Source of the DNA: Ignavibacteria bacterium
Lineage (GTDB): Bacteria; Bacteroidota; Ignavibacteria; Ignavibacteriales; SURF-24
Assembly (NCBI GenBank): GCA_025612375.1
Contig: JAAXKN010000001.1
Location: forward strand, 104,669-168,668
Direction of reading: 5' to 3'
DNA length: 64,000 nucleotides
Part shown: positions 18,893 to 34,542 of the stretch, piece after piece
Numbering within the stretch: position 1 is the stretch's first letter
Layout of the letters: each line of letters begins with the position of its first letter
Notes under the pieces: generated by a model
What the model was told of the DNA's origin: nothing
Databases searched by the model: none
Seen by the model: the letters and a program-made list of their open reading frames with translations, nothing else
Made by a program: the position numbers and the translations under genes

Positions 18893-21307
18893 TTAACCCA
18901 TTACAATTTCAATTTTAATCTCACTGGCATCATATTGCATAGGATCTATGAAAGCCGAGCTGGAAACTTCACCGTTTACCTTCATGCATTTTACAGAAGA
19001 GTTTACTCCAGCTTCGTTATTGACATGAAGAATGAGGCGTTTGCCGCGGAACATTCTTTCGGCCTTAAATTCCTTCCACGCTGAAGGAATGTTTGGTGAA
19101 ACAGTCACTCCGTGCAGTGACGTCTTAAAGCCAAGTATATAATCCAGCCCTATTCTCAGCATCCAGACTGCTGTACCGGTAAGCCAGGAATGGCTCGCCT
19201 GATTAACACTCGGGTGATCGGGGCTGGTAACATATTCTGCAAAAACGTAAGGCTCTACCTCGTACCTGTCGATATCCTTTGCTGAATTCAAAGGAAGCAT
19301 TTTCGAATAGACGTCATAAGCCGTTTCAATGTCGCCGTTCATAATTGCTGCCAGGACGAACCAGGAGGAGGCATGGTTAAAAATTGCGCCGTTTTCCTTT
19401 TTTCCCGGGACGCACCTGCTGATGAGCCCTATGTCATCTGCTATTTCCGTAAATGAAGGCCAGCAGATCTGAATGCCGTAAGGTTTATACAGGTACTTTT
19501 TGCACGATTCCAGAGCCTTGTCTGCACGATCCTTACTGGCAAGCCCCGATATAACAGACCAGGTCTGAGAGTTAATAAATATTTTTCCCTGCTTGTCCTT
19601 ATGTGTCCCAACCGGGCTCCCATCATCCTTAAATGCCCTTATATACCACTCGCCGTCCCAGCAGAATTCATCAGTTGCAGCCTTAAGCCTTTTATAAGCA
19701 GCGGTAAAGCGGCTGAGGGTTTCCTTATCCTTTCTAAGCTCCAGGAGTTCAAAAGTTTTCCTCAGGACATAAGCCAGGAAGAAGGCACCCCAGACGGTCT
19801 CCCCTTTTCCCAGGGGTCCGATGTGATCGAGAGTATCATTCCAGTCACCGTTCATAATCCTGGGGAGTGATCTTTCAGTAGTCGAAGAGACTGCGAAATC
19901 GAGTGCGTTAATCATGTGGGTATATACATCAGCGCTCCCCTTGTCGTAGTAGTTCACTGTTTCTTCAAGGATTGAAAAGTCACCTGTTTCATTCAGGTAT
20001 TCAATGATGCCGAACGGTATCCAGAGCGGAGTATCGGAATGATTGGTCCTTTCGCCGCTGTCAGTAAACTTAAAGAAGTTATGCAGCGTAGAGCCGTCAG
20101 AAAACTGGTAACGGAGGGCCTTCAGGAGGCGTGTTCTTACGCGCTCCGGATGGGCAATTACCATTCCAATAATATCCTGGAACTGGTCTCTCATTCCCGT
20201 ACCGAAGAGCAGGCCTCCATGATAATAGCCTGCGTTGCGTGCCATGTCGAATGTAACTGCAGCCTGGTACTGGTTCCACACCCCGAGCATTGCATCAAAT
20301 TTCTTATCCGGTGTATGGACTTTAATATTATTCAGGTATCCGGTCCAGTAGTCCTTCAATTCCTGAAATTTGCTGTTTAGGGTTCCGGTTTCCTTAAGAT
20401 CACAAATTTTCAGGTGCTCAAAGGGGTCTTCTTCCCTGGGTGAAATTCCAAGAATTGAAGCAAACTCGATTTCGGAGGATGGTTCCAGGCACACCTTTGA
20501 CTTGAGTGCAGCAACCGGGTCGCCCGCAGTTATTTCATTATTTTTCATCACACCGGTTTCAACCGATTCCGGGTTTGCCTCCGAGCGCCAGCGGCCTATA
20601 AATGTGTCCAGGCTGCTGTCGAAGCCTTCAACGGGAAGGGTGCTTGTAAATACGAGATTATACTTCCAGTCGATATTAGGCTGAGCCACAGAGACCTTTT
20701 TATTGAGGACCCAGTAGCGTCTTGTTGCAACAATTGCCTCGTGCTGAGTGTTGAATTTAATTTCTGTAAAATGCTTGTCGTTCGGTTCATTGATAATATC
20801 GTTAAGAGCATTGCCCATCATGAGTTCAATGAAGGAATAGATTTCAAGTTTTCTCTTTCTGCCCGATAAATCCGTCAGTTTTACCTTCCATATTTCGGCA
20901 TTGGTATCCAGGGGGACGAAATAAGTCAGTTCTCCCCTCATGCCAAAAATTTCAGTAATGATGGTTGTATACCCCTGCCCGTGCCTGCACTCGTATTTAT
21001 CGTACTTAAGGTCAATTGTAGGGGCCCAGCTCAGCGACCAGTACTTATTCAGTTCAGCGTCCTTTACGAGTATATATCTTCCGGGCCTGTCCCAGGGCAG
21101 GCAGTTATATCTCATTCTGCTAATTCTGTTGTCGCGGGGTGAGTCCAGGAAGCTGAAGCCTCCGCCCGTGTGGGAAATGAGTCCGCCATAATGCTCATTC
21201 CATATATAATTAAACCAGGGTCTGGGGGTACGCGGGTCAGTAATTATATATTCCCTGAAGTCCTCTGAAAAGTGTCCGTATTTATTTTCAAACATTGAAT
21301 CCCTCAT
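18893..21307 (-). CDS. GH94-family disaccharide phosphorylase
   Basis: 804 aa, no signal peptide, so cytoplasmic. The N-terminal beta-sandwich opens YGHFSEDFREYIITDPRTPR followed by GGLISHTGGGFSF, the GH94 signature. The catalytic (alpha/alpha)6 domain has GTGMRDQFQDIIG and MNGDWNDTLDHIG; Asp491 (the D of WND) aligns with the GH94 general acid. NHASSWFV and SWLTGTAVW carry the His and Thr that bind phosphate in known members. GH94 cleaves beta-disaccharides with phosphate to give alpha-sugar 1-phosphate; known substrates include cellobiose, chitobiose, laminaribiose and cellobionate. The NanE-type epimerase in the operon favours an N-acetylhexosamine substrate (inference). It overlaps the GH38 gene by 20 nt. 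Confidence 0.9.
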   Translation of the reverse strand: MRDSMFENKYGHFSEDFREYIITDPRTPRPWFNYIWNEHYGGLISHTGGGFSFLDSPRDNRISRMRYNCLPWDRPGRYILVKDAELNKYWSLSWAPTIDLKYDKYECRHGQGYTTIITEIFGMRGELTYFVPLDTNAEIWKVKLTDLSGRKRKLEIYSFIELMMGNALNDIINEPNDKHFTEIKFNTQHEAIVATRRYWVLNKKVSVAQPNIDWKYNLVFTSTLPVEGFDSSLDTFIGRWRSEANPESVETGVMKNNEITAGDPVAALKSKVCLEPSSEIEFASILGISPREEDPFEHLKICDLKETGTLNSKFQELKDYWTGYLNNIKVHTPDKKFDAMLGVWNQYQAAVTFDMARNAGYYHGGLLFGTGMRDQFQDIIGMVIAHPERVRTRLLKALRYQFSDGSTLHNFFKFTDSGERTNHSDTPLWIPFGIIEYLNETGDFSILEETVNYYDKGSADVYTHMINALDFAVSSTTERSLPRIMNGDWNDTLDHIGPLGKGETVWGAFFLAYVLRKTFELLELRKDKETLSRFTAAYKRLKAATDEFCWDGEWYIRAFKDDGSPVGTHKDKQGKIFINSQTWSVISGLASKDRADKALESCKKYLYKPYGIQICWPSFTEIADDIGLISRCVPGKKENGAIFNHASSWFVLAAIMNGDIETAYDVYSKMLPLNSAKDIDRYEVEPYVFAEYVTSPDHPSVNQASHSWLTGTAVWMLRIGLDYILGFKTSLHGVTVSPNIPSAWKEFKAERMFRGKRLILHVNNEAGVNSSVKCMKVNGEVSSSAFIDPMQYDASEIKIEIVMG

Positions 21308-24089
21308 TATTAGTATCGAATTTTATTCTTAGGGTAACGATTTTCTTTTTCCCTACTGTAACATTAAAAGAATTACTGTTTATGGTATCGACTTTGCGCC
21401 GTGGTTTTTCCTCCAGAGTAGTTTCTTCAACCCCTGATATTCTGAAAAGGGTTGAAACGTTTCCTGTTATCGTTCTTCCGGAAGGATTATAGAGCCTGAG
21501 AATAAAGCTTCCATTTTGGCCGTCCTCTGCTTTTTTAAGTGCGCTGAAGACGAGATCCTTCGGGATAAATTCAATAAACGATGAGTCGGGGTTTAACATC
21601 CCTTCAGATGCTCCTGTCTGCACAAGAGAAATGGAATTTGAAAAAGTCAGAGCCTGTTCAAAGACTTTGCCTTCAGACCAGTCTTTCCTGTGGGGATAAA
21701 AGGCGACGTGGTATGTATGTTTCCCCAGGCACTGTGAGCCTTTCATGTGAGAATAGTCCTGTTTTGAGCTGGGTGCAATGATGTATTCAAAGGCGCGCAG
21801 AAGTGTAACTGCAAGAGTCTTTTGCTTATCCTGCATCACCTCATACTCCTTTAGGCCTTCGCTTAAAACAGCGCAGCCGTTTGCGCCATCTGAAACATCC
21901 ACAAAGTGGTGCATCGGATAGTCGTACATGGGCTGTTCAATCCAGTCCTTTGTATCAGGGCGGTCAATTGAGCGTTTAACGACGTCAAACTGTCCTTCCC
22001 CGTATGAATACTTTGCATCAAGCCCGGTTGGGAAAAGCATTCTAAGGCGGTGGCTCTCGGCTATGTTATCAACTTCCACCATAAACTCCAGGCGCCTTGA
22101 GTTCTTTCCCAAGCTAAGTGTCAGAATAACAGGCATCCGGACCATTTTCCTGGTTTTTGAGAGTCTTGATTTGAGGTTTTCAGGAAGCCTTATAATATGT
22201 TTAATTCTAAAGACAGCTCTAAGAGGGTTGTCCTCAATGATTTTTATTTCCGGCTTTGATTTGAGCGTAGAGATGACCGGTTCAAGAGTCTCATGCGTCC
22301 AGGCATGACCGCCTTCACCTTCATCCAGGAAATAGCCCAGGTTTTTATAGGTTACCTTTGATTCTTTGTCAGTTACATTAAAAGACCCGTCGCTATTAAT
22401 TTTTACTTTGATGAACGGGTTTTCAAGGAGCCTCTCCCCTGCCCTATTGGTTTTAATGAGGCTTCCTTTAACTGATTTTTTTTGAGATGAAGGAATTACC
22501 TTAAACTGCCTAAATCCGAAAGCAGGAATGTCCTTCAGTTCCAGGAGAGTAGTGTAGCGCATCATCTCGAAGTACATCGGGCGGTCTATGAGCTGCTCCA
22601 GAACAGGCTGGCAGGCTTCCCTTCCCGTGACTACTATATCAAGTTCATTACCCCTGCTGTCAAGAACCTTGATGCTGCCTTTGTCAAATTCTTTCGGAAC
22701 GTCTATAAATGCCTGCACGGTTTCATTTCGCGTGTAGTTACCGGGATTGAATGCCGTAAGGAAAATATTCTTTTCATCCGGCACGGGAAGAAGTTTACTG
22801 CTGTCTATATTTTTCGAGATATATTTAACTGCTCTTTCAAATACACCGTGTGAGATCTGGAGGGAATGCTTATACCTCACAATCATGTCGTCGTGTATGT
22901 CATCAAGGCTGCAACCGCCGATTGAATCGTGAGCCGAATTCTGTATCAGGTACTCCCAGGCAATATCGAGATAATTGTCGCTGGTATTTCTGCCCAAAAG
23001 CGAAGAGAAAGCGCTAAAAGGCTCAGCATAGTACATCAGCCATTTTTCCGCTTCGTAATTTTTCTGTTTAATGTACATTCTGGCTGAAGTTGTATAGCCG
23101 TACAGGTTTCCGCTGCGCCTGTCGAACTGCGCGCTCCTGCGTTCCCCGCGGACTAATTTGAGTTTGGATTTATCCACACTTTTCAGTACTGCATCCGCAT
23201 ATTCTTCAAGAGTGCTGTGTTTTACCTCCATTCCGGGCATCATATTATTTATATCGCTAATGATTCTTGCGGTTTTCGCGTTTGGTCCGCTTGAATCGTG
23301 CCCTTCCATCCAGATAACGTGTCTGGTTGTAAAATCGTGAGCCTGCTCCCTAATAATTGATTCAACGGAGGGTTTTATATTCTGGCTGTAATATGAATCA
23401 AGCGGGACAATTATTGAGTAATCCTCTCCATACATATTTTTATCGGCAAAGTGAAAAGGCATACCTCCTTTAGACCACTTGTATTCAACATCCGGAATAG
23501 ACTCGTTATGGATCACCGGGCGATAGATATAAAAGTAAAAGTTATATCTTGGCATTGTAGAGAAGCGGGAAGAGACCATTTTTTCACCGTCCGCTCCTTC
23601 CCATAAAAATTCCGCCCTTGGGCTGTCAATGGAATTAACGCCGCGGTAGAACATAATAAGGTCTATATCAAACTGCTTATATATCTGGGGGAGCTGTGAT
23701 ATCTGTCCCCAGGAAAAAGGTGAATAGCCAATTTTTGACACCCCGCCGTACATAGCAGAAGTTTTATGCCCCAGAAGAAGGTTACGTATAAGGTTTTCGC
23801 CCCCCACCTGGAATTCATCGGGAAGTATGTACCATGGACCAACAAGGAGCCGTTTTTCCTCAACAAGCCTTATGAGGAGATCCTTTTTATCGGGGCGGAT
23901 TTCGAGGTAATCTTTAAGTACAATTGACTGGCTGTCCAGATGGAACGCCCTGTATTGCGGTTCATGTTCAAGTATATCGAGGACATTATCTATCATATCG
24001 ACGAGCATCTGGCGGTTCTTCTGGAATGGGTAGCGCCATTCCCTGTCCCAGTGCGTATTTGAAATAACGTGAAAAACTTTATTGTTCAT
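21288..24089 (-). CDS. GH38 alpha-mannosidase homologue with Phe at the nucleophile position
   Basis: 933 aa, cytoplasmic. The GH38 fold is clear: SNTHWDREWRYPF with zinc ligands H13 and D15, the GPWYILPDEFQVGGENLIRN region, WMEGHDSSG, and NSAHDSIGG with the third zinc-site His. The C-terminal beta domains are complete (LSLGKNSRRLEFMVEVDN, AVLSEGLKEYEV). The segment that normally carries the catalytic nucleophile, GYLPDSFG in E. coli MngB as I recall it, reads GYSPFSWG, putting Phe125 (codon TTT at 23715-23717) where Asp is expected. Either the protein uses another mechanism, or it is a binding or pseudo-enzyme. It is coupled to GH94 by a 20-nt overlap. Confidence 0.88.
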   Translation of the reverse strand: MNNKVFHVISNTHWDREWRYPFQKNRQMLVDMIDNVLDILEHEPQYRAFHLDSQSIVLKDYLEIRPDKKDLLIRLVEEKRLLVGPWYILPDEFQVGGENLIRNLLLGHKTSAMYGGVSKIGYSPFSWGQISQLPQIYKQFDIDLIMFYRGVNSIDSPRAEFLWEGADGEKMVSSRFSTMPRYNFYFYIYRPVIHNESIPDVEYKWSKGGMPFHFADKNMYGEDYSIIVPLDSYYSQNIKPSVESIIREQAHDFTTRHVIWMEGHDSSGPNAKTARIISDINNMMPGMEVKHSTLEEYADAVLKSVDKSKLKLVRGERRSAQFDRRSGNLYGYTTSARMYIKQKNYEAEKWLMYYAEPFSAFSSLLGRNTSDNYLDIAWEYLIQNSAHDSIGGCSLDDIHDDMIVRYKHSLQISHGVFERAVKYISKNIDSSKLLPVPDEKNIFLTAFNPGNYTRNETVQAFIDVPKEFDKGSIKVLDSRGNELDIVVTGREACQPVLEQLIDRPMYFEMMRYTTLLELKDIPAFGFRQFKVIPSSQKKSVKGSLIKTNRAGERLLENPFIKVKINSDGSFNVTDKESKVTYKNLGYFLDEGEGGHAWTHETLEPVISTLKSKPEIKIIEDNPLRAVFRIKHIIRLPENLKSRLSKTRKMVRMPVILTLSLGKNSRRLEFMVEVDNIAESHRLRMLFPTGLDAKYSYGEGQFDVVKRSIDRPDTKDWIEQPMYDYPMHHFVDVSDGANGCAVLSEGLKEYEVMQDKQKTLAVTLLRAFEYIIAPSSKQDYSHMKGSQCLGKHTYHVAFYPHRKDWSEGKVFEQALTFSNSISLVQTGASEGMLNPDSSFIEFIPKDLVFSALKKAEDGQNGSFILRLYNPSGRTITGNVSTLFRISGVEETTLEEKPRRKVDTINSNSFNVTVGKKKIVTLRIKFDTNNEGFNV

Positions 24090-24113: not shown

Positions 24114-25484
24114 TTAATGAATAAATAACTTATGGCACAGGAGAACCTCAGGCAGACCGCCTTCACACACAAAAGAGGCAGCCGAAAGGTCGTGTTTTTT
24201 AGTCTGTGCAAACGGAAGTGCCACACATAATCCGATACCTGCGGTTCTAATTGCCACGGTGCCGCTTTCGCTATCCTCAAATCCCGCTACCGTTTTGAAT
24301 TTTTCCTTTGGAATATGGAGTCTGTGAAGAGACATGCTGTAAAGGTCCCTGTGGGGTTTAAGCCTTATTTCGCTGGAATCACTGGCAGTAATGAACGCGT
24401 CATAGACATTATTGTAATCGGAGAACTTTTCGCAAAGCGTGTCTTTAAGCTCCCGAGGAATTTGGCTGCAGTTTATCTGTGCACGGAGCATTGTCATTAG
24501 CTCCCTCATTACGATATCAGCCTCATAAAAAATTGAAGAAGTCACAAGCGCCTTTTTAGCGGGATTCTTTCTGTAAACTCCCGCCAGGAGGCGGAGGTTT
24601 TCTTTGGCTGCGGTCATTAAACTTGCGGGGAATTCTGTGCCCGTTCTTGTTTTATAGTCTTTAAAGATCAGTGGCAAAAAGTATTCTATTTGAGACTCAG
24701 CGACCCATCCATTAATAATTGAGAGGAAAGTCAGTACGCCGGGCATAGGCTCGATGAGGTGTTTACCGGGATCAGAAAAAATTTCCGCGGCTACATTGCT
24801 TCCTTCCCCATTTTTGATGCGTTCAAGAATTTCGTGATATCGCTGATAGTAGACGTCAATGCCTGCTCTTACAATGCTGTCGAAGCCTGAGGGTTCAAAA
24901 CTGCTGCCATAGGTGTTAACAAAGTGTTTAATAATTTCAGGAGTAATTTCAACCGTTGATGCATCACGCCCCAGGTTTATGAGCACCGGATCCGAAAGCA
25001 TATCCCCCAACTTCAGGTTTATGACGTTGTTTCTGACCTCTTCCTTTCTTTTCTCATCGCGTCCAAGTACCAGCGTCCAGAGCGCGGCGTGAACAAACGC
25101 ATTTTTAATATTCTCGGTCCTGAAGGAATTCTGATATTTATTTACAAGGTATTCCACGTGTTTTGTCGTGCTGTTACCGATTATATGGGGATAGTCCAAA
25201 ACGTGGTCCAGTCCCGTCCACTCTTCATTTGACATTCTGGAGCTAAAGAGGCGGATCATATATTCCAGGGAGTGAAGGCACAGGAGCTCAGTGGTAGTTG
25301 TAGTGCCGTCCATATCCATCACAAATGCGGGAATAATGCCTGGGACGGATTTAATCTTTTCTGCCATAGGATAAATCTCAAAGGGAGGATAGACGTAGTC
25401 GGGGTTATTGACTACGGCAAATTCCTCCCCCAGGGATTCCAAAAGTTCGTAAGCATCTTTATTGTCTATAAATTTTTTATTCAT
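24114..25484 (-). CDS. HAD-superfamily hydrolase with large insertion (beta-PGM/phosphatase-like)
   Basis: 456 aa, about twice the usual HAD length. Motif I is AFVMDMDGTTTTTE (nucleophile D57, acid D59), motif II the Thr/Ser of ALVTSSIFYEAD, motif III the Lys in IRLKPHRDLYS, and motif IV GFEDSESGTVA. About 230 residues lie between motifs I and II, far more than a normal cap, with a PMPGVLTFLS segment near the end of it. It probably acts on a sugar phosphate, as a phosphatase or mutase, made by the neighbouring enzymes. It lies 24 nt upstream of the GH38 gene and follows the FAD oxidoreductase in the operon. Confidence 0.85.
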   Translation of the reverse strand: MNKKFIDNKDAYELLESLGEEFAVVNNPDYVYPPFEIYPMAEKIKSVPGIIPAFVMDMDGTTTTTELLCLHSLEYMIRLFSSRMSNEEWTGLDHVLDYPHIIGNSTTKHVEYLVNKYQNSFRTENIKNAFVHAALWTLVLGRDEKRKEEVRNNVINLKLGDMLSDPVLINLGRDASTVEITPEIIKHFVNTYGSSFEPSGFDSIVRAGIDVYYQRYHEILERIKNGEGSNVAAEIFSDPGKHLIEPMPGVLTFLSIINGWVAESQIEYFLPLIFKDYKTRTGTEFPASLMTAAKENLRLLAGVYRKNPAKKALVTSSIFYEADIVMRELMTMLRAQINCSQIPRELKDTLCEKFSDYNNVYDAFITASDSSEIRLKPHRDLYSMSLHRLHIPKEKFKTVAGFEDSESGTVAIRTAGIGLCVALPFAQTKKHDLSAASFVCEGGLPEVLLCHKLFIH

Positions 25485-25514: not shown

Positions 25515-26825
25515 TTAAGCCATTATGTTATACTTGACCAATTCCTGCACTTCCCGGTAAGGAAGCTCGCGGAGGCTTTTGTTTTTCCTGACGGCAAGTG
25601 CCGCCGCTGCGCCCGAAGCCTCACCTGTAGCAGCGCTGGTGGGCATAATTCTAAGCGCACTGTGTCCTTCTCTGGTAGAAGAGACGCACCTGCCGGCAGC
25701 AAGGACGTTCCGGACTCCCGAGACGAAGAGTGTTCTTAAAGGAATTTCGTAGTACTGGCCTTCGGGCACGTGCTCCATGACGCTATTTTCATCTTTCTGC
25801 CCATGTATATCTATTCCGTAGCAGGCTCTTGCAACTGCGTCATGAAACTTACATCCCCGTCTTACGTCATCGCCTGTATAAACATAGTCGCCTACTGCCC
25901 GGCGTGTTTCTCGTACACCCACCTGAACAGCCGTCTCGAGGAGGAATGAGTCTTCGAAGCCCGGGATTTCGCTTTGCAGGAGGCTAACGACCTCAGATAC
26001 CTGCTGACGTCCTTTGATTTCAGCTTTGGTAAGGTCAAAAGAGCTGGAGCCATCGAGCGACAGGATGTTTGATGTATTGAAGGAAGCTTCTCCTTCTTCG
26101 GGCAGTGTAGTAAAGAATATATATTCTAATTCCGGGGAGAGTCTACCCTCCCGAATGGCATTTTTCACCTGGCTGAAATATCCGGCGATGGAAATGATTT
26201 TCCTGAAGTCAAAATTATAATCCATCCATGAAAAAAAGTTTTCCTTATTCAGTGCGGCGTAATCCGTAACTTTTCTCATATTGATGTTTGCCATTCTGAA
26301 GAACATTGTAAGCGCCTGCAATTTTCCCGTTTTTTCGTCTCCCTTGCTGAATCGCAATCCGGCAAGGTAAAGCAGTTGGGCGTCTCCGGTTGTATCAATA
26401 AATATTTTACCGGTGAATCTGAATGTCCTGCCTTCTGAGAGAACGCGGAGAGCCTTTAGTTCACCATCGAGTATTTCGACGCTGCATATTTCGCAATTGA
26501 GCAGGAGGTGGCAGCCGGACTTTTCCAGAATAGAGAAGGAAGCGATACGGAAGCTACCGGCATAAAAGCCGTTATCTATAATTCCGTGCATAGTTTTCAT
26601 TTCCTTTTCCAGTTCCCCTAAGACACCATTAACAAGAGGCCTGCCGTTAATGGAATATTTCATAAATGGCGAGACCATGCCGGCGGTAGACATACCTCCT
26701 AAAAATCCGTAACGTTCAATGAGAAGTACGCGGGCTCCCATAGAGGATGCTTTAGCAGCGGCACTTATGCCCGCAATGCCCCCTCCGGCAACAATGACGT
26801 CGTAATCATTTTCATTATTGTTCAT
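25515..26825 (-). CDS. FAD-dependent oxidoreductase (FAD_oxidored family)
   Basis: About 436 aa. The N-terminal Rossmann motif is VIVAGGGIAGISAAAKASS with Glu of LIERYGF. It continues GFLGGMSTAGMVSPF, then IFIDTTGDAQLLYLAG, and ends with the C-terminal FAD site VLAAGRCVSSTREGHSALRI followed by MPTSAATGEASGAAA, all typical of this flavoprotein family. Members oxidise or reduce sugars or small carbon substrates, but the reaction here is unknown. Two ATGs are possible (26831 and 26825); I chose 26825 because it makes an ATGA overlap with the preceding NanE-like gene's stop. The intact family length contrasts with the short paralogue two genes upstream. Confidence 0.88.
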   Translation of the reverse strand: MNNNENDYDVIVAGGGIAGISAAAKASSMGARVLLIERYGFLGGMSTAGMVSPFMKYSINGRPLVNGVLGELEKEMKTMHGIIDNGFYAGSFRIASFSILEKSGCHLLLNCEICSVEILDGELKALRVLSEGRTFRFTGKIFIDTTGDAQLLYLAGLRFSKGDEKTGKLQALTMFFRMANINMRKVTDYAALNKENFFSWMDYNFDFRKIISIAGYFSQVKNAIREGRLSPELEYIFFTTLPEEGEASFNTSNILSLDGSSSFDLTKAEIKGRQQVSEVVSLLQSEIPGFEDSFLLETAVQVGVRETRRAVGDYVYTGDDVRRGCKFHDAVARACYGIDIHGQKDENSVMEHVPEGQYYEIPLRTLFVSGVRNVLAAGRCVSSTREGHSALRIMPTSAATGEASGAAAALAVRKNKSLRELPYREVQELVKYNIMA

Positions 26826-27526
26826 TGGCATAGCACTTTCTTTATTGCATCAATGTACCATTGAGTAATGAGTGCCGGGCGCGTAATTGCAGAGCCGGTT
26901 ACAACGCTCCATGCGCCTTTTCTGATCATCTTTGCCGCTGCCTCGGGTGTATTGATGCGCCCTTCAGCAAATACAGGGACAAGGGCTTTTGAGGCAAGGG
27001 ACTCAAGGAGCTGGAAGTTAGGGCCGAGCGGGCATTCCGCCGAAGTCTCCGGAGTATACCCGTTAAGAGTTGTAGAAATACAATCTGCCCCGGCCGCTTC
27101 ACATTCCAGACCTTCTACGGAATTGGAGATATCCGCCATAAGAGTGCAATCAAATTCGCGCTTTATTTTTTCTATAAACTCTGGACCGCTAAGTCCCTCT
27201 CTTTTTCTGAATGTACCGTCAACAGCAATGATACCGGGGCCGATTTCCATGAGTTTTTCAACTTCTTTCATAGAGCCGGTAATTCTTACAGTTCCATCCT
27301 GAAAATAGGATTTGCTGAGTGCAATGACGGGGATATCGACTTCAGAAAGAATCCTCTTTGTTTTTTCGACACCCTCGGATCTTATACCTTTTGCTCCCCC
27401 CTGCAGAGCGGCCTTAGCAAAAAGCGCAACTCCTTCAGGTGAATTGAAAGGTGATTCCCCTTCGGCCTGACAGGATACGACAAGGCCGAACTTCAATTTT
27501 TCTAGAATATTTTGACTTTTTTCCAT
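26822..27526 (-). CDS. nanE: NanE-like N-acylglucosamine-6-phosphate 2-epimerase
   Basis: 234 aa from ATG 27526 (MEKSQNILEKLKFGLVVSCQ). A longer frame from 27577 would overlap the upstream gene by 50 nt, while 27526 starts 1 nt after its stop, so I prefer the short form. NanE features are all present: GLVVSCQAEGESPFNSPE, the Lys in VIALSKSYFQDGTVRITG, TLMADISNSVEGLECEAAGA, CISTTLNGYT and PVFAEGRINTPE with the catalytic Glu region. NanE interconverts N-acetylmannosamine 6-phosphate and N-acetylglucosamine 6-phosphate in the cytoplasm. No NanA lyase or NanK kinase is nearby, so the substrate may come from another route. Confidence 0.88.
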   Translation of the reverse strand: MEKSQNILEKLKFGLVVSCQAEGESPFNSPEGVALFAKAALQGGAKGIRSEGVEKTKRILSEVDIPVIALSKSYFQDGTVRITGSMKEVEKLMEIGPGIIAVDGTFRKREGLSGPEFIEKIKREFDCTLMADISNSVEGLECEAAGADCISTTLNGYTPETSAECPLGPNFQLLESLASKALVPVFAEGRINTPEAAAKMIRKGAWSVVTGSAITRPALITQWYIDAIKKVLCQ

Positions 27527-27527
27527 A

Positions 27528-28367
27528 TTATCCGCATAAATGTGTTTCAATTTCTGAAGCTTTGACAAGCTGTTCATCGGACAGATAGTTTTTTGACAGG
27601 ATTTCTTCTACCGTCTTAACAGGCTCCTCAGTGATCTCATTTTCCCGGTCAAATTCGAACCGGGAATAAATCTCAGGGGGCATAATCTGAATTCTGGCCC
27701 CGGAATTATGGAGCACAGGAGTAAATCTTCCTGCTTCTTTCTCGCTCAGGCCGTCCGCACTCTTGAGTGAAACCCAGTACCTGCCGTCGCGCAGTTTCAC
27801 ATAGTTTGAAATGCCCTCATACATAAGGAAGCCGTTTTCCAGGGGCCTTGTTGTAAAGAGATTTGCTTTCCTTGCAATCTCCCTTGGCTGGAATCTTCCA
27901 TGAATAAAGCTGAAGAGAAAGTTTTCCGAAGCATCCAGCAGCAATGAAGTGGTCATTTTTATAATTCCATCTTTTCCAACTAAGTCCAGCTCCAGGCGGT
28001 GGTCACCCTTAGTTTCAGTCTTAAGAGGGTTGACATGGAAGAGCATATCGACGTTATTAGCCACAAGTAATTCCTGGAGGATCATTTTAACCGTTTCCGG
28101 GTTAACCAGCACTCTTTTTTCATCATTATAAAGGATGCCGTATTTATCTTTTTTCAGAGAGGAGATGAACTGCTTATAAAAGCCTTCACCTTCGGGTTCC
28201 TTTATTTTCTGAAGGCAGTTCAGGCCAGAAGTGATGCTTCCGCCGGGAAATCCGTAGCGGTTTGTCATCAGCACATCTTTCCCCTCGCCCCGTTTATTAA
28301 GGGCATAGATTACTCCGGCAACAGTAGCGCCGTAAACCACAACATCATATTTTTTACTTCTAATCAT
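27528..28367 (-). CDS. Short FAD_oxidored-like protein (lacks C-terminal FAD segment)
   Basis: 279 aa. The N-terminus matches the full-length paralogue at 25515-26825: YDVVVYGATVAGVIYALNKR, then TNRYGFPGGSITSGLN. The dinucleotide motif is imperfect (GATVAG in place of GGGIAG). The C-terminal part with AGR...GHSALR...ATGEA is absent; the protein ends ...VKASEIETHLCG after a helical tail. The stop is clean and the next gene starts 1 nt later, so this looks like a settled short form rather than recent truncation. It could be a partner subunit of the longer flavoprotein, or inactive. Confidence 0.75.
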   Translation of the reverse strand: MIRSKKYDVVVYGATVAGVIYALNKRGEGKDVLMTNRYGFPGGSITSGLNCLQKIKEPEGEGFYKQFISSLKKDKYGILYNDEKRVLVNPETVKMILQELLVANNVDMLFHVNPLKTETKGDHRLELDLVGKDGIIKMTTSLLLDASENFLFSFIHGRFQPREIARKANLFTTRPLENGFLMYEGISNYVKLRDGRYWVSLKSADGLSEKEAGRFTPVLHNSGARIQIMPPEIYSRFEFDRENEITEEPVKTVEEILSKNYLSDEQLVKASEIETHLCG

Positions 28368-28381
28368 TAATTTTCACCTGG

Positions 28382-30538
28382 TCACTTTGAAGAAACAATC
28401 AGGACTACTTCATCATCAGGTGATATTCTGGAAAGTTCCAGATCTGTCAGTGTCATCACCTGTGTTTCATTAATCAGTCCGGAAAGATTTATTATCTGTC
28501 CTGATATCAACAGAAATATATTAGGCATAAGGGCACCTGCATCGCCAAAAACTGTAAAACGTTCAACAGCCCTGGAGATTTTGTTTTTCAATTCACCTGC
28601 CTGAACTGAAACAACAAAAGCCTCATTCATCTGCAGGCGGATTGTGCCTTCCCTGTCAATTACCCTGAGCTTGCAGAATTCCCTTCTTATAAGTCCGAAA
28701 CTGCTTTTTTTAACGCCCTTATGGACTACAGCGTACAGGAAGGGGGTTCGTCCGGCAATAATGAGGTTATCGGTTGAAGTTTTAAGTGACGAAGCACAGA
28801 TGCTGAAAAGCTCGTGCTGGCTCAATTCCTTAATGTTCAGGTCACGTGTTCTTAGCTCACTATTGCCCATTGCGACGGCAATAATTTTTTTGTTCTTTGA
28901 ATCTATCTCTACAGTAATTTCTACGGTATCCGGGGCTGCCCCCATTTTTATAACCGAGTCGAGCGCTTCCTGGCGGATTGCAATAATTTCGGAATCAGTG
29001 GGATTAATTGAAGATCTTTCCACTGAGTCCATGATCATACCAAGAGCAGCCCCGATTGCAGAAATGACTTCGCAGTTAGAGCTGATCTTGTGAGGGTAAT
29101 CAAGATATCCGGCGGTAAAAGGGACAATTGCAGATGCACCGCCGCCGCCGCCGATAAAATTAATGAGTTCCTCATCGAGCTTATATTCCCTCTTAAGCTG
29201 GCTTATTACGGGTTTAATTTTTTCAGCAGATATTTCCAGTATATCCAGGGCGATCTGTTCAGCCGGTGTATTCAATTTTTCAGAGAGTGAGCTCATGGCC
29301 TGTGCAATTGCCATATGGTTTGCTTCGCCATGACCTTTCTCTTTTACAAGCCCAAGGAAACCGGAGGCCTCGGTAGGTGTAATTGTAAATTTCTTATGGC
29401 CGTTTTTACTGATAGAGATTGCCAGGTAGTCATCAGGGTCATTTTCCCTGGGTTTTACATTTTCAATTTCAATATTCCTGAAGTCAGTATCGCAGCTGAA
29501 GGACACATAATCCAGCCCTGCTATGTGGGCGCTTCTGGGTCCCACTTCAAAAATTCTGCCCGAGCGGATCCTGGGGACTGAGCCGCCGGCAATGCCGAGG
29601 GTTCTAACGTCAAGGGTTTTCAGGTATAGTCTGTTGCCTCCGATCTGGGCGCTTTTGACCTGTGGCTTTCCATTCTTAATGACAGAGATATCGGTTGAGG
29701 TCCCGCCTACTTCAAGAAAGATTCCGTCGGACACTTTAGCGTACATGAGTGCGGCGGCCAGACCAGCAGCCGGGCCGCTAAGCATCGTAAGAATAGGTCT
29801 TCTGCGCATTTCATTTATATCCATAATTCCGCCGTCGGAACGCATAACCATAAGTGGGGCTTTAATGCCGCTTTTCTTAATGGCCTCCTCTGTCATATTC
29901 GCTGTTTCCAGCATCTTAGGCATCATGCTGGCATTAAGCACCGCAGTCCTTGTTCTTACCCTTAAGCCGTAAAGCTTTGAAATACTGCTTGCGGCAGTAG
30001 CAAGGAGCCCCATTTCCTGTGCGATATGCACTACGAACTCCTCGTTTGAGAGGTTATCGACTCCGAATGCCTCTGAGGCTACAATTACTTCTGCCCCGCT
30101 TTTGAGAAGTGTTTCAATAGCATTGCGGACCCTGTTTTCATCAAGGGGCAGAGAAGTATCAAGAAAACAGTGCCTGGTCTGGAGAAACTTATCAGAGCCG
30201 AGGCCGATGTGGTCAAGCTTTGTCTCCTTTTTTGCCCTCAGGCCTTCAAGGCCTTTTCCCATACCTATTATTCCAACTATTGCGACGTCACCTTCGAGCA
30301 GGGCATTTGTAGCCTGTGTGGTGGAATGTGCAATGAGTATAATTTCCCCGGGGTTCAGTTTTGCAGCAGAGATCAGTTTCTGAAGAGCCTCAATAACTCC
30401 TTTTGCAACCCCTTCCTTAGCGGAGTGTGTAGTAGGCACGCAGGCTTTCCCCACAATTGAATAGTCACTGATTTCAACTGCCACAGCGTGTGTAAAAGTA
30501 CCGCCAACGTCTATTCCAATCTTTATTTTTCTAACCAT
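28382..30538 (-). CDS. Hydantoinase/oxoprolinase HyuA-family ATPase
   Basis: 718 aa, normal HyuA length. It opens KIKIGIDVGGTFTHAVAVE, the phosphate-1 loop of this ASKHA-fold family, followed by AHSTTQATNALLEG, MVMRSDGGIMDINEM, MLSGPAAGLAAALMY, FLEVGGTSTDISVIKNG and IGGGGGASAIVPFTAGY. Family members use ATP to open lactam or hydantoin rings or to activate carbonyls, usually with a HyuB subunit; no HyuB gene is in this window. It is placed between the permease and the short FAD protein, 14 nt from the latter. It may act on a lactam- or amide-bearing sugar (inference). Confidence 0.9.
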   Translation of the reverse strand: MVRKIKIGIDVGGTFTHAVAVEISDYSIVGKACVPTTHSAKEGVAKGVIEALQKLISAAKLNPGEIILIAHSTTQATNALLEGDVAIVGIIGMGKGLEGLRAKKETKLDHIGLGSDKFLQTRHCFLDTSLPLDENRVRNAIETLLKSGAEVIVASEAFGVDNLSNEEFVVHIAQEMGLLATAASSISKLYGLRVRTRTAVLNASMMPKMLETANMTEEAIKKSGIKAPLMVMRSDGGIMDINEMRRRPILTMLSGPAAGLAAALMYAKVSDGIFLEVGGTSTDISVIKNGKPQVKSAQIGGNRLYLKTLDVRTLGIAGGSVPRIRSGRIFEVGPRSAHIAGLDYVSFSCDTDFRNIEIENVKPRENDPDDYLAISISKNGHKKFTITPTEASGFLGLVKEKGHGEANHMAIAQAMSSLSEKLNTPAEQIALDILEISAEKIKPVISQLKREYKLDEELINFIGGGGGASAIVPFTAGYLDYPHKISSNCEVISAIGAALGMIMDSVERSSINPTDSEIIAIRQEALDSVIKMGAAPDTVEITVEIDSKNKKIIAVAMGNSELRTRDLNIKELSQHELFSICASSLKTSTDNLIIAGRTPFLYAVVHKGVKKSSFGLIRREFCKLRVIDREGTIRLQMNEAFVVSVQAGELKNKISRAVERFTVFGDAGALMPNIFLLISGQIINLSGLINETQVMTLTDLELSRISPDDEVVLIVSSK

Positions 30539-30571: not shown

Positions 30572-32047
30572 TTATAAATAAATTAATGAGGCACAAAGCA
30601 GCCCCAGAAAAGCAATTGTCCATGTATACGGCATTGTATTTTTTAAGAGTTTCTGCACATCCGTCTGCATTTCGTTTGCCAGCCAGACGTTGTGTGTATT
30701 TGTCGGGTCGCTTATTCCCTGTATCTGCCCAACTGAGAGCAGGAGTCCCATGATAGCACCGGGGTTGAGCCCGCTGGCAAGAAACACGGCAGCCAGACCG
30801 TAGCCCATTCCCCAGACATTCAAAGGGCCGCGGTACAGCGCCAAAGGCGCACAAAATGTAAAAATAGCCACGTATGAAAGGCTGCCATGAGGAACAATGT
30901 TCAGAAGAAGAGGTTTCAATAGATTAAGCACGGGCCAGCCTCCGGGATATTGCCGCAATTCCACTCCGGGTCCCATAATTGCGATAAGGAGCATTCCGAT
31001 GCCGAACATAAGTATCACGGCAGGCATAACAACAGCTCCCCCCTCGAAGATGCATCTAATCAGGAGGTTGAGTCTTCCTTTTTTGTATGTTGCCATGAAA
31101 GCATAAATTATTCCCACAATGAATGAGGCAATAAAGTTCAGACTGAATATCAGTATTAAAATCAGCGGTATTACCGGGGAGAAGTAAGCCGTCCAGTGAA
31201 CATCTGACAAATGTTCGTTTTTCTGGAGAACCAGCCTCAGAATAACGACTGCACACAGCAGAGCCATTGAAGAAGCTATAGCCCATTTCAGGACAAAAGC
31301 CGTTCCTGAAAAGAATTTATCGACCATCCCCTTTCCTGATGGAGTCAGGACATTGCTGTAGACTGCGAATGCCGCAAAAGCCAGGCCCATAAGAATTATG
31401 CTGACGATTGCAATTTTTCTTACATTAATATTCTGTCCATCCCTGTAGAGCTGGACGGTGATATATACAATTGCAATAAAAAGAGAGATAGAAAAAATAA
31501 TAAGCGCAAAGCGTTTGATCTCCTCGGGATGAAGCCCCATCACGCTGATATATACGGCCCAGTTCCCGACGTTTATAATGCCGCCAATGCTGAGGCCGAA
31601 GAGAAATATTCCTACTGCAGTAATAGCTCCAATTCCGACTGAAGACATTATTGGGAGCACAATTGTAGCCACCATTATTATTGCGCCAAGCCCACCAAGA
31701 ATTGAGAACAGGAAAACAATAAGCAGTAAAGTCATTACAGCAATTATCCAGGGGTTATCGCCGGAAAGTTCTGCTCCTTTTTTTATCATGCTTTCGGCTA
31801 CTCCCGTTTTCTGAAGCACAATACTGAGCATACTTCCCATCATTGCAATAGTATAGGCATTGTACAGCTTCAGTGAGCCCTGTCCTATGACATATTCAAT
31901 GATATCCCCGGGCAATATTCCGCCAATTAGCGCAATGAGGACCGCCATGACAGGAAGCGTAATCAAAGCCGGCATTTTGCGCATAAACATCAGGACGGAC
32001 ATGACTGCAAAAACGGCAACAAGAAGTAATGTTTGAATTATCTGCAT
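30572..32047 (-). CDS. Inner-membrane permease, GntP/citrate-type ion transporter superfamily
   Basis: 491 aa with about 12 hydrophobic segments and no signal peptide. It starts IQTLLLVAVFAVMSVLMFMR, then LITLPVMAVLIALIGGILPG. The re-entrant-like SILGGLGAIIMVATIVLPIM and the conserved ISDPTNTHNVWLANEMQ near the C-terminus suggest a carboxylate or sugar-acid symporter of the GntP/CitMHS type, though I cannot fix the family. It is the first gene of the eight-gene minus operon, 33 nt before HyuA, so it probably imports the pathway substrate. Confidence 0.75.
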   Translation of the reverse strand: MQIIQTLLLVAVFAVMSVLMFMRKMPALITLPVMAVLIALIGGILPGDIIEYVIGQGSLKLYNAYTIAMMGSMLSIVLQKTGVAESMIKKGAELSGDNPWIIAVMTLLLIVFLFSILGGLGAIIMVATIVLPIMSSVGIGAITAVGIFLFGLSIGGIINVGNWAVYISVMGLHPEEIKRFALIIFSISLFIAIVYITVQLYRDGQNINVRKIAIVSIILMGLAFAAFAVYSNVLTPSGKGMVDKFFSGTAFVLKWAIASSMALLCAVVILRLVLQKNEHLSDVHWTAYFSPVIPLILILIFSLNFIASFIVGIIYAFMATYKKGRLNLLIRCIFEGGAVVMPAVILMFGIGMLLIAIMGPGVELRQYPGGWPVLNLLKPLLLNIVPHGSLSYVAIFTFCAPLALYRGPLNVWGMGYGLAAVFLASGLNPGAIMGLLLSVGQIQGISDPTNTHNVWLANEMQTDVQKLLKNTMPYTWTIAFLGLLCASLIYL

Positions 32048-32271
32048 TGTGTTATTTTACTTTTTGTGTGCTAACATAATTAAACAGAAAAAGAAAAAAA
32101 CCTACACTATGATGTAGTTGTCGGGGAGCATGAGATGAGCTAACTTTTTATGCCAAGATATTTGTTTTTGCAATGTTTTGGGAATATTTCGCCATTTTGG
32201 CCGGGCTAAAACCGGGAGATATCCCGCTGTTACATTTCCGGCAGATAAACTATAGGGATCTACACATCATA
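32048..32271. promoter_or_regulatory. Divergent promoter region between the permease operon and the mutase operon
   Basis: 224 nt separate the starts of the minus-strand permease and the plus-strand phosphohexomutase. It contains an A-rich tract (about 32082-32100) and a short palindrome CTACA-CTATGA-TGTAG (32102-32117) that could bind a regulator. The shared region suggests that the two operons are controlled together. Confidence 0.4.
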
Positions 32272-33711
32272 ATGAATAATGAAATTGTTTTCGGGACCGA
32301 CGGCTGGCGCGGCCTGCTGGATAAAGAAATAAACAACGAATCTACTTCACTTGCGGCACAGGCATTTTCAGACTATCTCATTTCAGAGAAAAGTGAGGCT
32401 AAATGTGGACGGGACCTGCAGGTTGCCGTAGGATTTGACGGAAGGAGATGTTCATCTGAATTTGCGTCAATATTTGCCGAGGTCCTCTCAGGCAATTCGA
32501 TAAGAGTATTTTTATCTGACAAAGTTGCACCTACGCCTGCCTTGTCATTTTTCGTGAAAGAAAAAGAGCTGGATGCAGGTGTTATGATAACTGCGAGTCA
32601 TAATCCGCCTGAATACAACGGTATAAAATTCAAGGCATCATACGGAGGTCCTTTTTGTACAGAAGAGACACTGAAGGTTGAAAAGCTTCTTGGCAGGAGC
32701 AGCATTAAAAGGAACAGCCAAAATGTAGTTACAACTGATCTTATGGAAGTTTATTTCGGGCAGCTTGAGAGCTACATCGATTTCAGATCTATAAGGGAAG
32801 CAGGCATTAAAATCCTGGCCGATTCGATGGCAGGAGCGGGCCGGAGGTACCTTGAAGAAATACTAAAAAGAAACGGATGCAGTTGTGAGACAATTTTCGG
32901 GACATGCAGTACAGACTTCTGCGGGAGGATGCCTGAGCCGATAGAAAAAAATCTTACAGATTCAAGAATTTACTTACAGGAAGACCCGGGATTTTCCTTT
33001 GGAGCTGCCACGGACGGTGATGCCGACCGCTGCGGGATCCTGCTTGAAAACGGTCAGTGGCTGAGTGCCCAATATACGATTCTTCTTTTGAACGATTACT
33101 TTGTAAATCAGAGAAAAGTCAAAGGGCACCTGGTAAAGACATCCTCGGTTACCGATAAGATAAAGCAATTTGAATCCGCAGAAAGGAAAGTTATTGACGT
33201 GCAGGTGGGTTTTAAATATATATGTGAAGAAATGATTTCCAGGGATATTGCAATTGGGTGTGAAGAAAGCGGCGGCTTTGGCTACAAAGGGCACATACCT
33301 GAACGTGACGGAATTTTATCTGCTCTGATAATGGCCGAGATGCTTTCAAAATCGGGCTACACCGAATTAAGCAGGTATTTTGAAATGAAAAAGCGTGAAT
33401 TCGGGAGCATCTTTTACGACAGGATTGATTACAGGTACGATGGCAAAGACAGAACAGAGATACTGCCCCGGCTTTTTTCCTCTCCACCGAAAAGCATAAC
33501 AGAATTTCCAGTCCTCGACATTAAGGAATTCTATTCAAGCAGGGGGATCATCAACGGATTAAAGTTCACCCTAAAGGGAGATGCCAGATGGCTGCTCATG
33601 CGCGCTTCAGAAACAGAGCCACTGGTAAGAATATATGCCGAGGGAAACAGTTCCACGGAAGTAGAAACATTGCTCAGGAGCGGCGTCAATTTGTTACTTA
33701 ACAAGAATTAG
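32272..33711 (+). CDS. Phosphohexomutase (phosphoglucomutase/phosphomannomutase family)
   Basis: 479 aa from ATG 32272 (MNNEIVFGTDGWRGLLDKE); the 33 codons open upstream do not look like protein. The alpha-D-phosphohexomutase signatures are in order: FGTDGWRG, the phosphoserine loop MITASHNPPEYNG, metal loop GAATDGDADRCGIL, sugar-binding GCEESGGFGYKGHIPERDG, and a C-terminal phosphate-binding RASETEPLVRIYAE. It interconverts hexose 1- and 6-phosphates in the cytoplasm; GlcNAc, Glc and Man substrates are all possible. It faces the GH94/NanE operon, so it could convert the GH94 product, a sugar 1-phosphate, to the 6-phosphate used by NanE. Confidence 0.92.
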   Translation: MNNEIVFGTDGWRGLLDKEINNESTSLAAQAFSDYLISEKSEAKCGRDLQVAVGFDGRRCSSEFASIFAEVLSGNSIRVFLSDKVAPTPALSFFVKEKELDAGVMITASHNPPEYNGIKFKASYGGPFCTEETLKVEKLLGRSSIKRNSQNVVTTDLMEVYFGQLESYIDFRSIREAGIKILADSMAGAGRRYLEEILKRNGCSCETIFGTCSTDFCGRMPEPIEKNLTDSRIYLQEDPGFSFGAATDGDADRCGILLENGQWLSAQYTILLLNDYFVNQRKVKGHLVKTSSVTDKIKQFESAERKVIDVQVGFKYICEEMISRDIAIGCEESGGFGYKGHIPERDGILSALIMAEMLSKSGYTELSRYFEMKKREFGSIFYDRIDYRYDGKDRTEILPRLFSSPPKSITEFPVLDIKEFYSSRGIINGLKFTLKGDARWLLMRASETEPLVRIYAEGNSSTEVETLLRSGVNLLLNKN

Positions 33712-33723
33712 GCAGTGCATATA

Positions 33724-34542
33724 ATGGGCAATTGTGAAGCCAGGAGAAGGCTCAAAAAATTTCTTACTGAAGGAGGACTAAGGCCAGGACAAAATATAAT
33801 TGTACATGCTTCTTTCAGGAAACTCCGGGAAGAATTCCCTGAAATCAGCCCGGAAGAAGCCGTATCTGTACTGAAGGAAATAATAAGCTGCAATGGCTCG
33901 GTTATTTTCCCGGCATTTACCTACAGCTTTAAGAAGCCTGGCCAAAGCTATGATTTTTTTGACAGGCTTCATTCACAATCCAAAACCGGAATTTTGTCTG
34001 AAGTCTTCAGAACCTCAGAAGGCGTGATAAGGACGTCCTCCCCTACCCATTCATTTTCATTATGGGGAAAGGCAGCAGGCTCCATCAGCTTTCTAAATTC
34101 ACCGTCAAGCCCTTTGGGACACGGAAGCGTAATTGACTGGCTTGCAGGAACGGATGAAAGTTATGTACTCATGCTTGGGGCTGATTTTACTGCACTGACG
34201 ATTGGGCATTACATAGAAAACATTTCCGGAGCCGAATACCTTAAGATTTCACCATGGAACTATTTGAATGTACTTCCATGTGGTGTTTCAGACATCGGCG
34301 AGCAGGCTTTAATAGAAGTTCCGGGGTGCAGCAGGAGTTTCACCGGATTTGAACGCCACCTTCTAAAAGAAGGTATCATAAAGAAATTCTGCAGGGAAAG
34401 TCTCAACAGTTATTTCATAAGCATCCCGCTTTTAATTCGGCATGGCATAAGCTACCTAAGGAAGAATCCAACCGGACTCCTCTGCCCCGAAGGAGCGTGC
34501 AGCTCGTGCAATGAAAGACACGTGTTTTTACAAAACAAATGA
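33724..34542 (+). CDS. AAC(3)-family N-acetyltransferase (Antibiotic_NAT)
   Basis: About 272 aa; ATG at 33724 or GTG at 33715, 3 nt past the mutase stop. Antibiotic_NAT features: RPGQNIIVHASFRKLREEFP, then GSVIFPAFTYSF, RTSSPTHSFSLWG with the catalytic-site His, and GHGSVIDWLAG. The family acetylates the 3-amino group of aminoglycosides, and many chromosomal members acetylate amino sugars in biosynthesis. The C-terminus has a Cys-rich end (LLCPEGACSSCNERH). Its tight coupling to the mutase and the facing NanE/GH94 operon suggests acetylation of an amino sugar rather than drug resistance (inference). Confidence 0.85.
   Translation: MGNCEARRRLKKFLTEGGLRPGQNIIVHASFRKLREEFPEISPEEAVSVLKEIISCNGSVIFPAFTYSFKKPGQSYDFFDRLHSQSKTGILSEVFRTSEGVIRTSSPTHSFSLWGKAAGSISFLNSPSSPLGHGSVIDWLAGTDESYVLMLGADFTALTIGHYIENISGAEYLKISPWNYLNVLPCGVSDIGEQALIEVPGCSRSFTGFERHLLKEGIIKKFCRESLNSYFISIPLLIRHGISYLRKNPTGLLCPEGACSSCNERHVFLQNK

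Follow-up and report, generated by a model that had tools for sequence, protein, structure and literature searches.

The window (the whole stretch of DNA that was analyzed, 64,000 nucleotides in length) holds on its minus strand a gene at 21288–24089 for a 933-aa protein with the GH38 fold, placed by its ORF, Pfam domains, AF2 fold match and clade support of 100/100 in a clade whose members lack the catalytic nucleophile. On one side it overlaps by 20 bp a gene for a GH94 phosphorylase-family protein (18893–21307), which bears out the coupling to a phosphorylase gene that a preliminary description of this DNA had reported. Directly upstream lies a gene for a 456-aa HAD-superfamily protein (24114–25484), and beyond it are genes for an FAD-dependent oxidoreductase (25515–26831; Pfam PF12831; conserved in lineage A, defined below), for NanE of the ManNAc-6-P 2-epimerase family (26822–27577; family matches), for a short, fast-evolving FAD_oxidored-related protein (27528–28367; Pfam and relatives), for a HyuA (hydantoinase/oxoprolinase) family protein (28382–30538; Pfam) and for a probable membrane transporter (30572–32047), recognized by its hydrophobic sequence and with no Pfam or NCBIfam match. 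All of these are on the minus strand. A GlmM/phosphohexomutase-like protein (family match) is encoded on the plus strand at 32173–33711; in most relatives its gene lies inside the operon.

In the FAD_oxidored-related protein, the Pfam match is limited to the first half, and the protein is 27–52% identical between species, compared with about 45–85% for its neighbors. The membrane protein (491 aa) is conserved in the operon and probably imports the substrate. A gene of the aminoglycoside 3-N-acetyltransferase family (33715–34542) adjoins the mutase gene; homologs recur near the operon (L013, L025, L036 and L041), so a role in resistance is improbable here.

The GH38 gene has an ATG start and zero internal stops, and the GH38 N, middle, C and C2 domains all score above the Pfam cut-off. 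The AF2 model has a mean pLDDT of 87.6, and its best structural matches are the GH38 enzymes of Enterococcus faecalis and Streptococcus pyogenes (TM 0.83–0.84 to 5kbp and 2wyh/2wyi); the loop at residues ∼120–130 is modeled at low confidence (block mean 56), and residues 389–391 fall below 50. Thus, both the intact gene and the overall fold stand as previously described. The NCBIfam model for MngB mannosylglycerate hydrolase (NF007331) scores the protein at 484.6 bits, below its equivalog cut-off of 1138. The protein lacks a signal peptide, its His13 being residue 13, and is most simply taken to be cytoplasmic.

In the Streptococcus enzyme SpGH38, the zinc ligands are H13, D15, D125 and H351, the acid/base is D232, D125 serves both as nucleophile and as zinc ligand, and R149 keeps D125 ionized (PMC2815779). 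The preliminary description had proposed that this Asp is replaced here by Phe125 (codon 23715–23717, minus strand), and every alignment agrees. Locally the alignment is ungapped, GYSPFSWG standing against GYFPDTFG of the Enterococcus and Streptococcus structures (phmmer) and GYLPDSFG of Escherichia coli MngB (locus L171); a profile–profile alignment likewise sets Phe125 at the nucleophile position, and even the residue number is the same in both proteins. Pairwise, multiple and profile alignments therefore rule out misalignment at position 125. As aligned, Phe125 takes away both the nucleophile and the fourth zinc ligand. Another Asp at the nucleophile site was looked for, and none was found by sequence alignment; because Asp223 is invariant and sits in a clade-specific insertion, it could conceivably occupy that site in the folded protein.

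The substitution is not peculiar to this gene. When 84,980 species genomes were scanned, 327 related stretches came back, and in the best 80, which were examined at the site, Phe is present in all 80; the motif there is GYSPF[SG]WG or differs from it by one residue (GYTPFSWG in L029). The search for other PFSWG proteins that had been suggested earlier thus succeeded, and Phe is also found in 12/12 further loci, against Asp in every MngB-type canonical relative aligned. Such recurrence is far beyond chance, and a sequencing error is therefore rejected. A canonical GH38 partner supplying the activity from the same genome was likewise considered and rejected, since a search of the source genome for a canonical GH38 gene found none; two other genomes have both forms.

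The rest of the catalytic apparatus is retained. Over 55 aligned members of the Phe clade, the zinc ligands His13 (24051–24053), Asp15 (24045–24047) and His387 (22929–22931), the last contributed by the helical domain, are invariant and correspond to H13, D15 and H351 of SpGH38, so that the zinc site is kept as first claimed. Equally invariant are Trp18, the general acid/base Asp265 (23295–23297), which aligns with D232, and Arg149 (23643–23645), the partner of the nucleophile Asp in SpGH38 (PMC2815779) and here without that partner. These codons and those that follow are all on the minus strand. Around them, ∼20 positions, including R19, H50, S53, F125, W127, Q129, R181, R190, W205, D223, H264, S267 and W597, are invariant in the Phe clade and carry another residue in four canonical relatives; H264, however, is not fully clade-specific, since His stands at that position in E. 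coli MngB as well. In the first shell the changes are D125F, F127W and Y574W: Trp127 (23709–23711) replaces the Phe127 that is conserved in the −1 subsite (clade comparison; PMC2815779), and Trp597 aligns with Y574 of SpGH38. A remodeled loop or insertion of ∼50 residues (∼176–225; 23415–23564), supported among other evidence by the profile alignment, is specific to the clade and contains invariant R181, N183, R190, W205 and, at the sequence level, D223. Arginines R19, R175, R181 and R190 are gained and R149 is kept, as read from the sequence alignment, and these are candidates for binding phosphate at the −1 site. The ∼20 changed and fixed positions form the pattern of a remodeled, selected site rather than of decay, and the active site as predicted from these comparisons is remodeled, not broken.

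In a maximum-likelihood tree, the Phe forms make up a single clade with 100/100 support and a long stem, so one change accounts for all of them. Lineage A comprises Ignavibacteria, Bacteroidota, Marinimicrobia, Calditrichaeota, Delongbacteria and others; lineage B, at ∼39% identity, comprises gut Clostridia and Planctomycetes. The branch of nucleophile-less α-mannosidase-like enzymes is therefore widespread and well conserved among bacteria. Against the nearest relative, dN/dS is ∼0.07, a rough NG86 value; dS is saturated in all pairs but one.

The operon is conserved in lineage A in the order transporter, HyuA, second FAD oxidoreductase, NanE, first FAD oxidoreductase, mutase, HAD, GH38, GH94, with losses in some lineages. 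Among the 29 lineage A loci with at least 8 kb upstream, GH94 is found in 21, NanE in 21 and HyuA in 23. The co-occurrence with these three genes that the preliminary description had expected thus holds in lineage A and fails in lineage B: GH94, NanE, HyuA, the mutase and the transporter accompany the Phe-type GH38 in lineage A only. NanE and GH94 are absent from lineage B, where HAD is the sole constant neighbor and a canonical GH38 adjoins in 9/13 loci, often on the opposite strand. Comparison of the GH94 protein did not separate the cellobiose from the chitobiose type. No kinase gene was seen in the operon here, even though phosphosugars are the substrates of NanE and the mutase, and Phe-GH38 operons showed neither a PTS nor a kinase gene; ROK-family sugar kinase genes and NagA occur elsewhere in the source genome, and the ROK genes weaken any argument from a missing kinase. 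Other genes that recur beside lineage A loci (L002, L036, L049 and others) encode NAGPA phosphodiester glycosidase, GHL10, DUF5009 and DUF4434 proteins, and GlcNAc 2-epimerase and sodium:solute symporters also recur; N-acylglucosamine 2-epimerase is found in some Balneolaceae and Melioribacteraceae loci. On a Priestia megaterium plasmid (L174:2639-8269), a canonical GH38 (PDTFG) has an FAD-dependent oxidoreductase and a ROK gene as neighbors, and so the association of GH38 with such oxidoreductases is wider than the Phe clade.

The core partner of the Phe-type GH38 is the HAD protein, which went unmentioned in the preliminary description. Its homolog adjoins GH38 in both lineages, lying directly upstream in 47/51 lineage A loci and 12/15 lineage B loci. 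Across 197 genomes of one class, HAD is present in all 17 with a Phe form and in none of the other 180, of which 21 carry a canonical GH38 only. This co-occurrence has a Fisher p of ∼7e-25, or 3e-11 within GH38 carriers, in counts that ignore kinship and take related species as independent. The lineage A and B proteins are homologous across the catalytic motifs (DxD, S/T, K, ED), which are all present, with D57, D59, T315/S316, K376, E403 and D404 invariant, and they share the cap residues H109, Y212 and H217. The fold matches CbbY, β-PGM and mannitol-1-P phosphatase (Foldseek), but the PGMB family model (TIGR02009) scores 17.4 bits, below its cut-off of 153; the fold, like family scores and PDB sequence comparisons, does not tell a mutase from a phosphatase. 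In Lactococcus lactis β-PGM, residues R49, K117 and N118 bind the second phosphate. In an alignment with the β-PGM sequence, the HAD protein has other residues at these positions, and so may be a phosphatase rather than a mutase. The same genome has a second HAD paralog (G000:C11:67364-68728; L154:9320-10732) in which motif I reads DLEGT, the second Asp having become Glu; its gene adjoins an aldose-epimerase-like gene, with no GH38 nearby.

An enzyme of this kind that has lost its nucleophile and kept its acid and metal has four options: an external nucleophile, a nucleophile from the substrate, a residue that has moved into the site, or another reaction altogether. The Phe-type GH38 is very probably catalytically active, and we tentatively favor the first option, in which it would be an inverting phosphorylase with phosphate in place of Asp and HAD processing the sugar phosphate. 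Zinc, held by three protein ligands instead of four, together with aromatic groups, would hold a sugar of α-mannose or α-ManNAc configuration; the retained acid Asp265 would protonate the leaving group; and inorganic phosphate, bound to the freed Arg149 and perhaps also to the newly gained arginines, would most likely attack from the β face instead of Asp125 to yield a β-sugar-1-phosphate. The obligate HAD partner would then act on this product as phosphomutase or phosphatase. Through NanE, this could in lineage A feed into ManNAc-6-P/GlcNAc-6-P metabolism, parallel to GH94 phosphorolysis and a hexosamine-phosphate mutase.

Several observations lead to this preference. Phe125 is invariant alongside the retained zinc ligands, acid, Arg149 and Trp18, ∼20 further positions are fixed in the clade, and neither a signal peptide nor a kinase gene in the operon was seen; all of this counts in its favor. 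Inverting phosphorylases need only an acid, as phosphate replaces the base (PMC8950772), and the groups kept in the Phe clade appear to be the set that they need, unless Asp223 stands in for the lost carboxylate. In GH130, a set of basic, phosphate-binding residues as opposed to carboxylates separates phosphorylases from hydrolases (PMC4599007); the loss of a carboxylate and the gain of arginines in the Phe clade fit the phosphorylase side of that pattern. The HAD partner points to a sugar phosphate, and it is this partner, the acid-only requirement, the GH130 precedent, and a partnerless R149 with gained arginines that together favor phosphorolysis. Moreover, lineage B, without NanE or GH94 and often beside a canonical GH38, indicates that an acetamido sugar need not be required for the chemistry common to both lineages. 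Against phosphorolysis, Phe is no obvious phosphate ligand, and the missing β-PGM second-phosphate residues count against HAD acting as a mutase in such a pathway. GH38 is not among the known inverting phosphorylase families listed in PMC8950772. What we infer rather than prove is that the reaction is a phosphorolysis, that it proceeds with inversion, and which sugar it acts on.

The same observations bear on the other options. If the substrate supplied the nucleophile, which we consider unlikely, the protein would be a retaining hydrolase of an α-N-acetylmannosaminide: the axial 2-acetamido group, trans-diaxial to the α leaving group, would attack C1 to give an oxazoline, Asp125 would be dispensable, and Phe125, Trp127 and Trp597 would form an acetamido pocket. 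ManNAc is suggested by NanE in most lineage A operons and by the N-acylglucosamine 2-epimerase of some Balneolaceae and Melioribacteraceae loci, the first-shell changes make the −1 pocket more aromatic, and GH18, GH20 and GH99 are precedents for a substrate that assists as nucleophile (PMC4599007). However, lineage B has the same Phe with no ManNAc genes nearby, which argues against this as a shared explanation; the GH38 zinc binds the 2- and 3-hydroxyls, an arrangement that an acetamido group would disturb; and the obligate HAD is left unexplained. A still less probable course is that an acidic residue of the clade-specific insertion reaches the −1 site and maintains a retaining glycosidase. 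Asp223 is the best candidate, being invariant in 55/55 in an insertion that only this clade has, alongside R181, N183, R190 and W205, but it does not align with the nucleophile site in sequence, and by itself this arrangement does not explain the HAD linkage.

It is somewhat more doubtful again that the substrate is a phosphosugar or other acidic glycoside, as the 6-phospho-mannosylglycerate of MngB would be, with the gained arginines binding the anion, water or the 2-hydroxyl as nucleophile, and HAD removing the phosphate before or after cleavage. The closest named family, although below its cut-off, is a mannosylglycerate hydrolase, and both the clade-specific arginines and the HAD partner fit; the lack of a PTS or kinase gene in the operons does not, nor do the non-phosphorylating sodium:solute symporters that accompany some lineages. 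Recruitment of the zinc site for a non-glycosidic reaction such as deacylation, as in the deacetylases that share this barrel type, is very unlikely: the His-Asp-His metal site does survive without the nucleophile, and the operon does hold the amidase-like HyuA, but the protein retains the acid/base of a glycosidase, Trp18 for sugar stacking and every GH38 accessory domain, and lineage B has no HyuA. Least credible is a pseudoenzyme or decaying gene, for which only the missing canonical nucleophile speaks. The frame is intact, purifying selection is strong at the low dN/dS given above, Phe and the zinc and acid residues are invariant among relatives, including Phe throughout the best 80 of the 327 stretches, and one clade has been kept over many phyla with a conserved operon. 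Decay is therefore rejected, in agreement with the preliminary description.

Phe-type enzymes thus probably break sugar bonds by a different chemistry, perhaps with the use of phosphate. Homology reads them as α-mannosidases or mannosylglycerate hydrolases though the defining residue is missing, and under either phosphorolysis or substrate assistance their automatic annotation should change. One ancestral change, many phyla, a remodeled site and a fixed partner make this a testable case of a glycosidase fold switching mechanism. Phosphorolysis, if true, would extend the short list of glycoside phosphorylases by one family and provide an enzyme for making α-mannosides from sugar-1-phosphate; substrate assistance, if true, would define a new α-ManNAc-specific class. 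It is possible, though even more tentatively than phosphorolysis as such, that this is the first GH38-fold glycoside phosphorylase and the first phosphorylase of α-mannosides or α-ManNAc glycosides, having arisen when loss of the zinc-bound nucleophile let phosphate in and fixed the HAD partner. In the open-access literature, searched incompletely, we found no earlier description of a nucleophile-less GH38 or a GH38 phosphorylase, nor of a linkage between GH38 and either HAD or GH94 plus NanE.

It is useful to compare the Phe clade with known systems. With E. coli MngB, the GH38 mannosylglycerate hydrolase, and with SpGH38, it shares the fold, the four domains, H13, D15 and H351, as well as the acid/base D232, R149, W18 and D352. 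It differs in the exchange of Asp125, nucleophile and fourth zinc ligand, for Phe and of F127 and Y574 for Trp, and it adds its specific insertion, its invariant residues and its HAD partner. In known pathways, β-sugar-1-phosphate is handled by a HAD-family β-PGM. The inverting α-glucoside phosphorylases of GH65 turn an α-glycoside into a β-sugar-1-phosphate (PMC3899277) and are alike in the logic proposed here, but their fold is unrelated, and phosphorolysis is proven for them, whereas we infer it for Phe-type GH38. The mannoside phosphorylases and hydrolases of GH130 are a precedent in that an exchange between basic phosphate-binding residues and carboxylates distinguishes the two kinds of enzyme (PMC4599007); they differ in their unrelated five-bladed propeller fold, in acting on β-mannosides and in using no zinc. 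Finally, GH99 endo-α-mannosidases and GH18/GH20 hexosaminidases also work without an enzyme nucleophile, the 2-O or 2-acetamido group of the substrate serving instead (PMC4599007), but they have other folds, and their −1 sugar is not bound by zinc.
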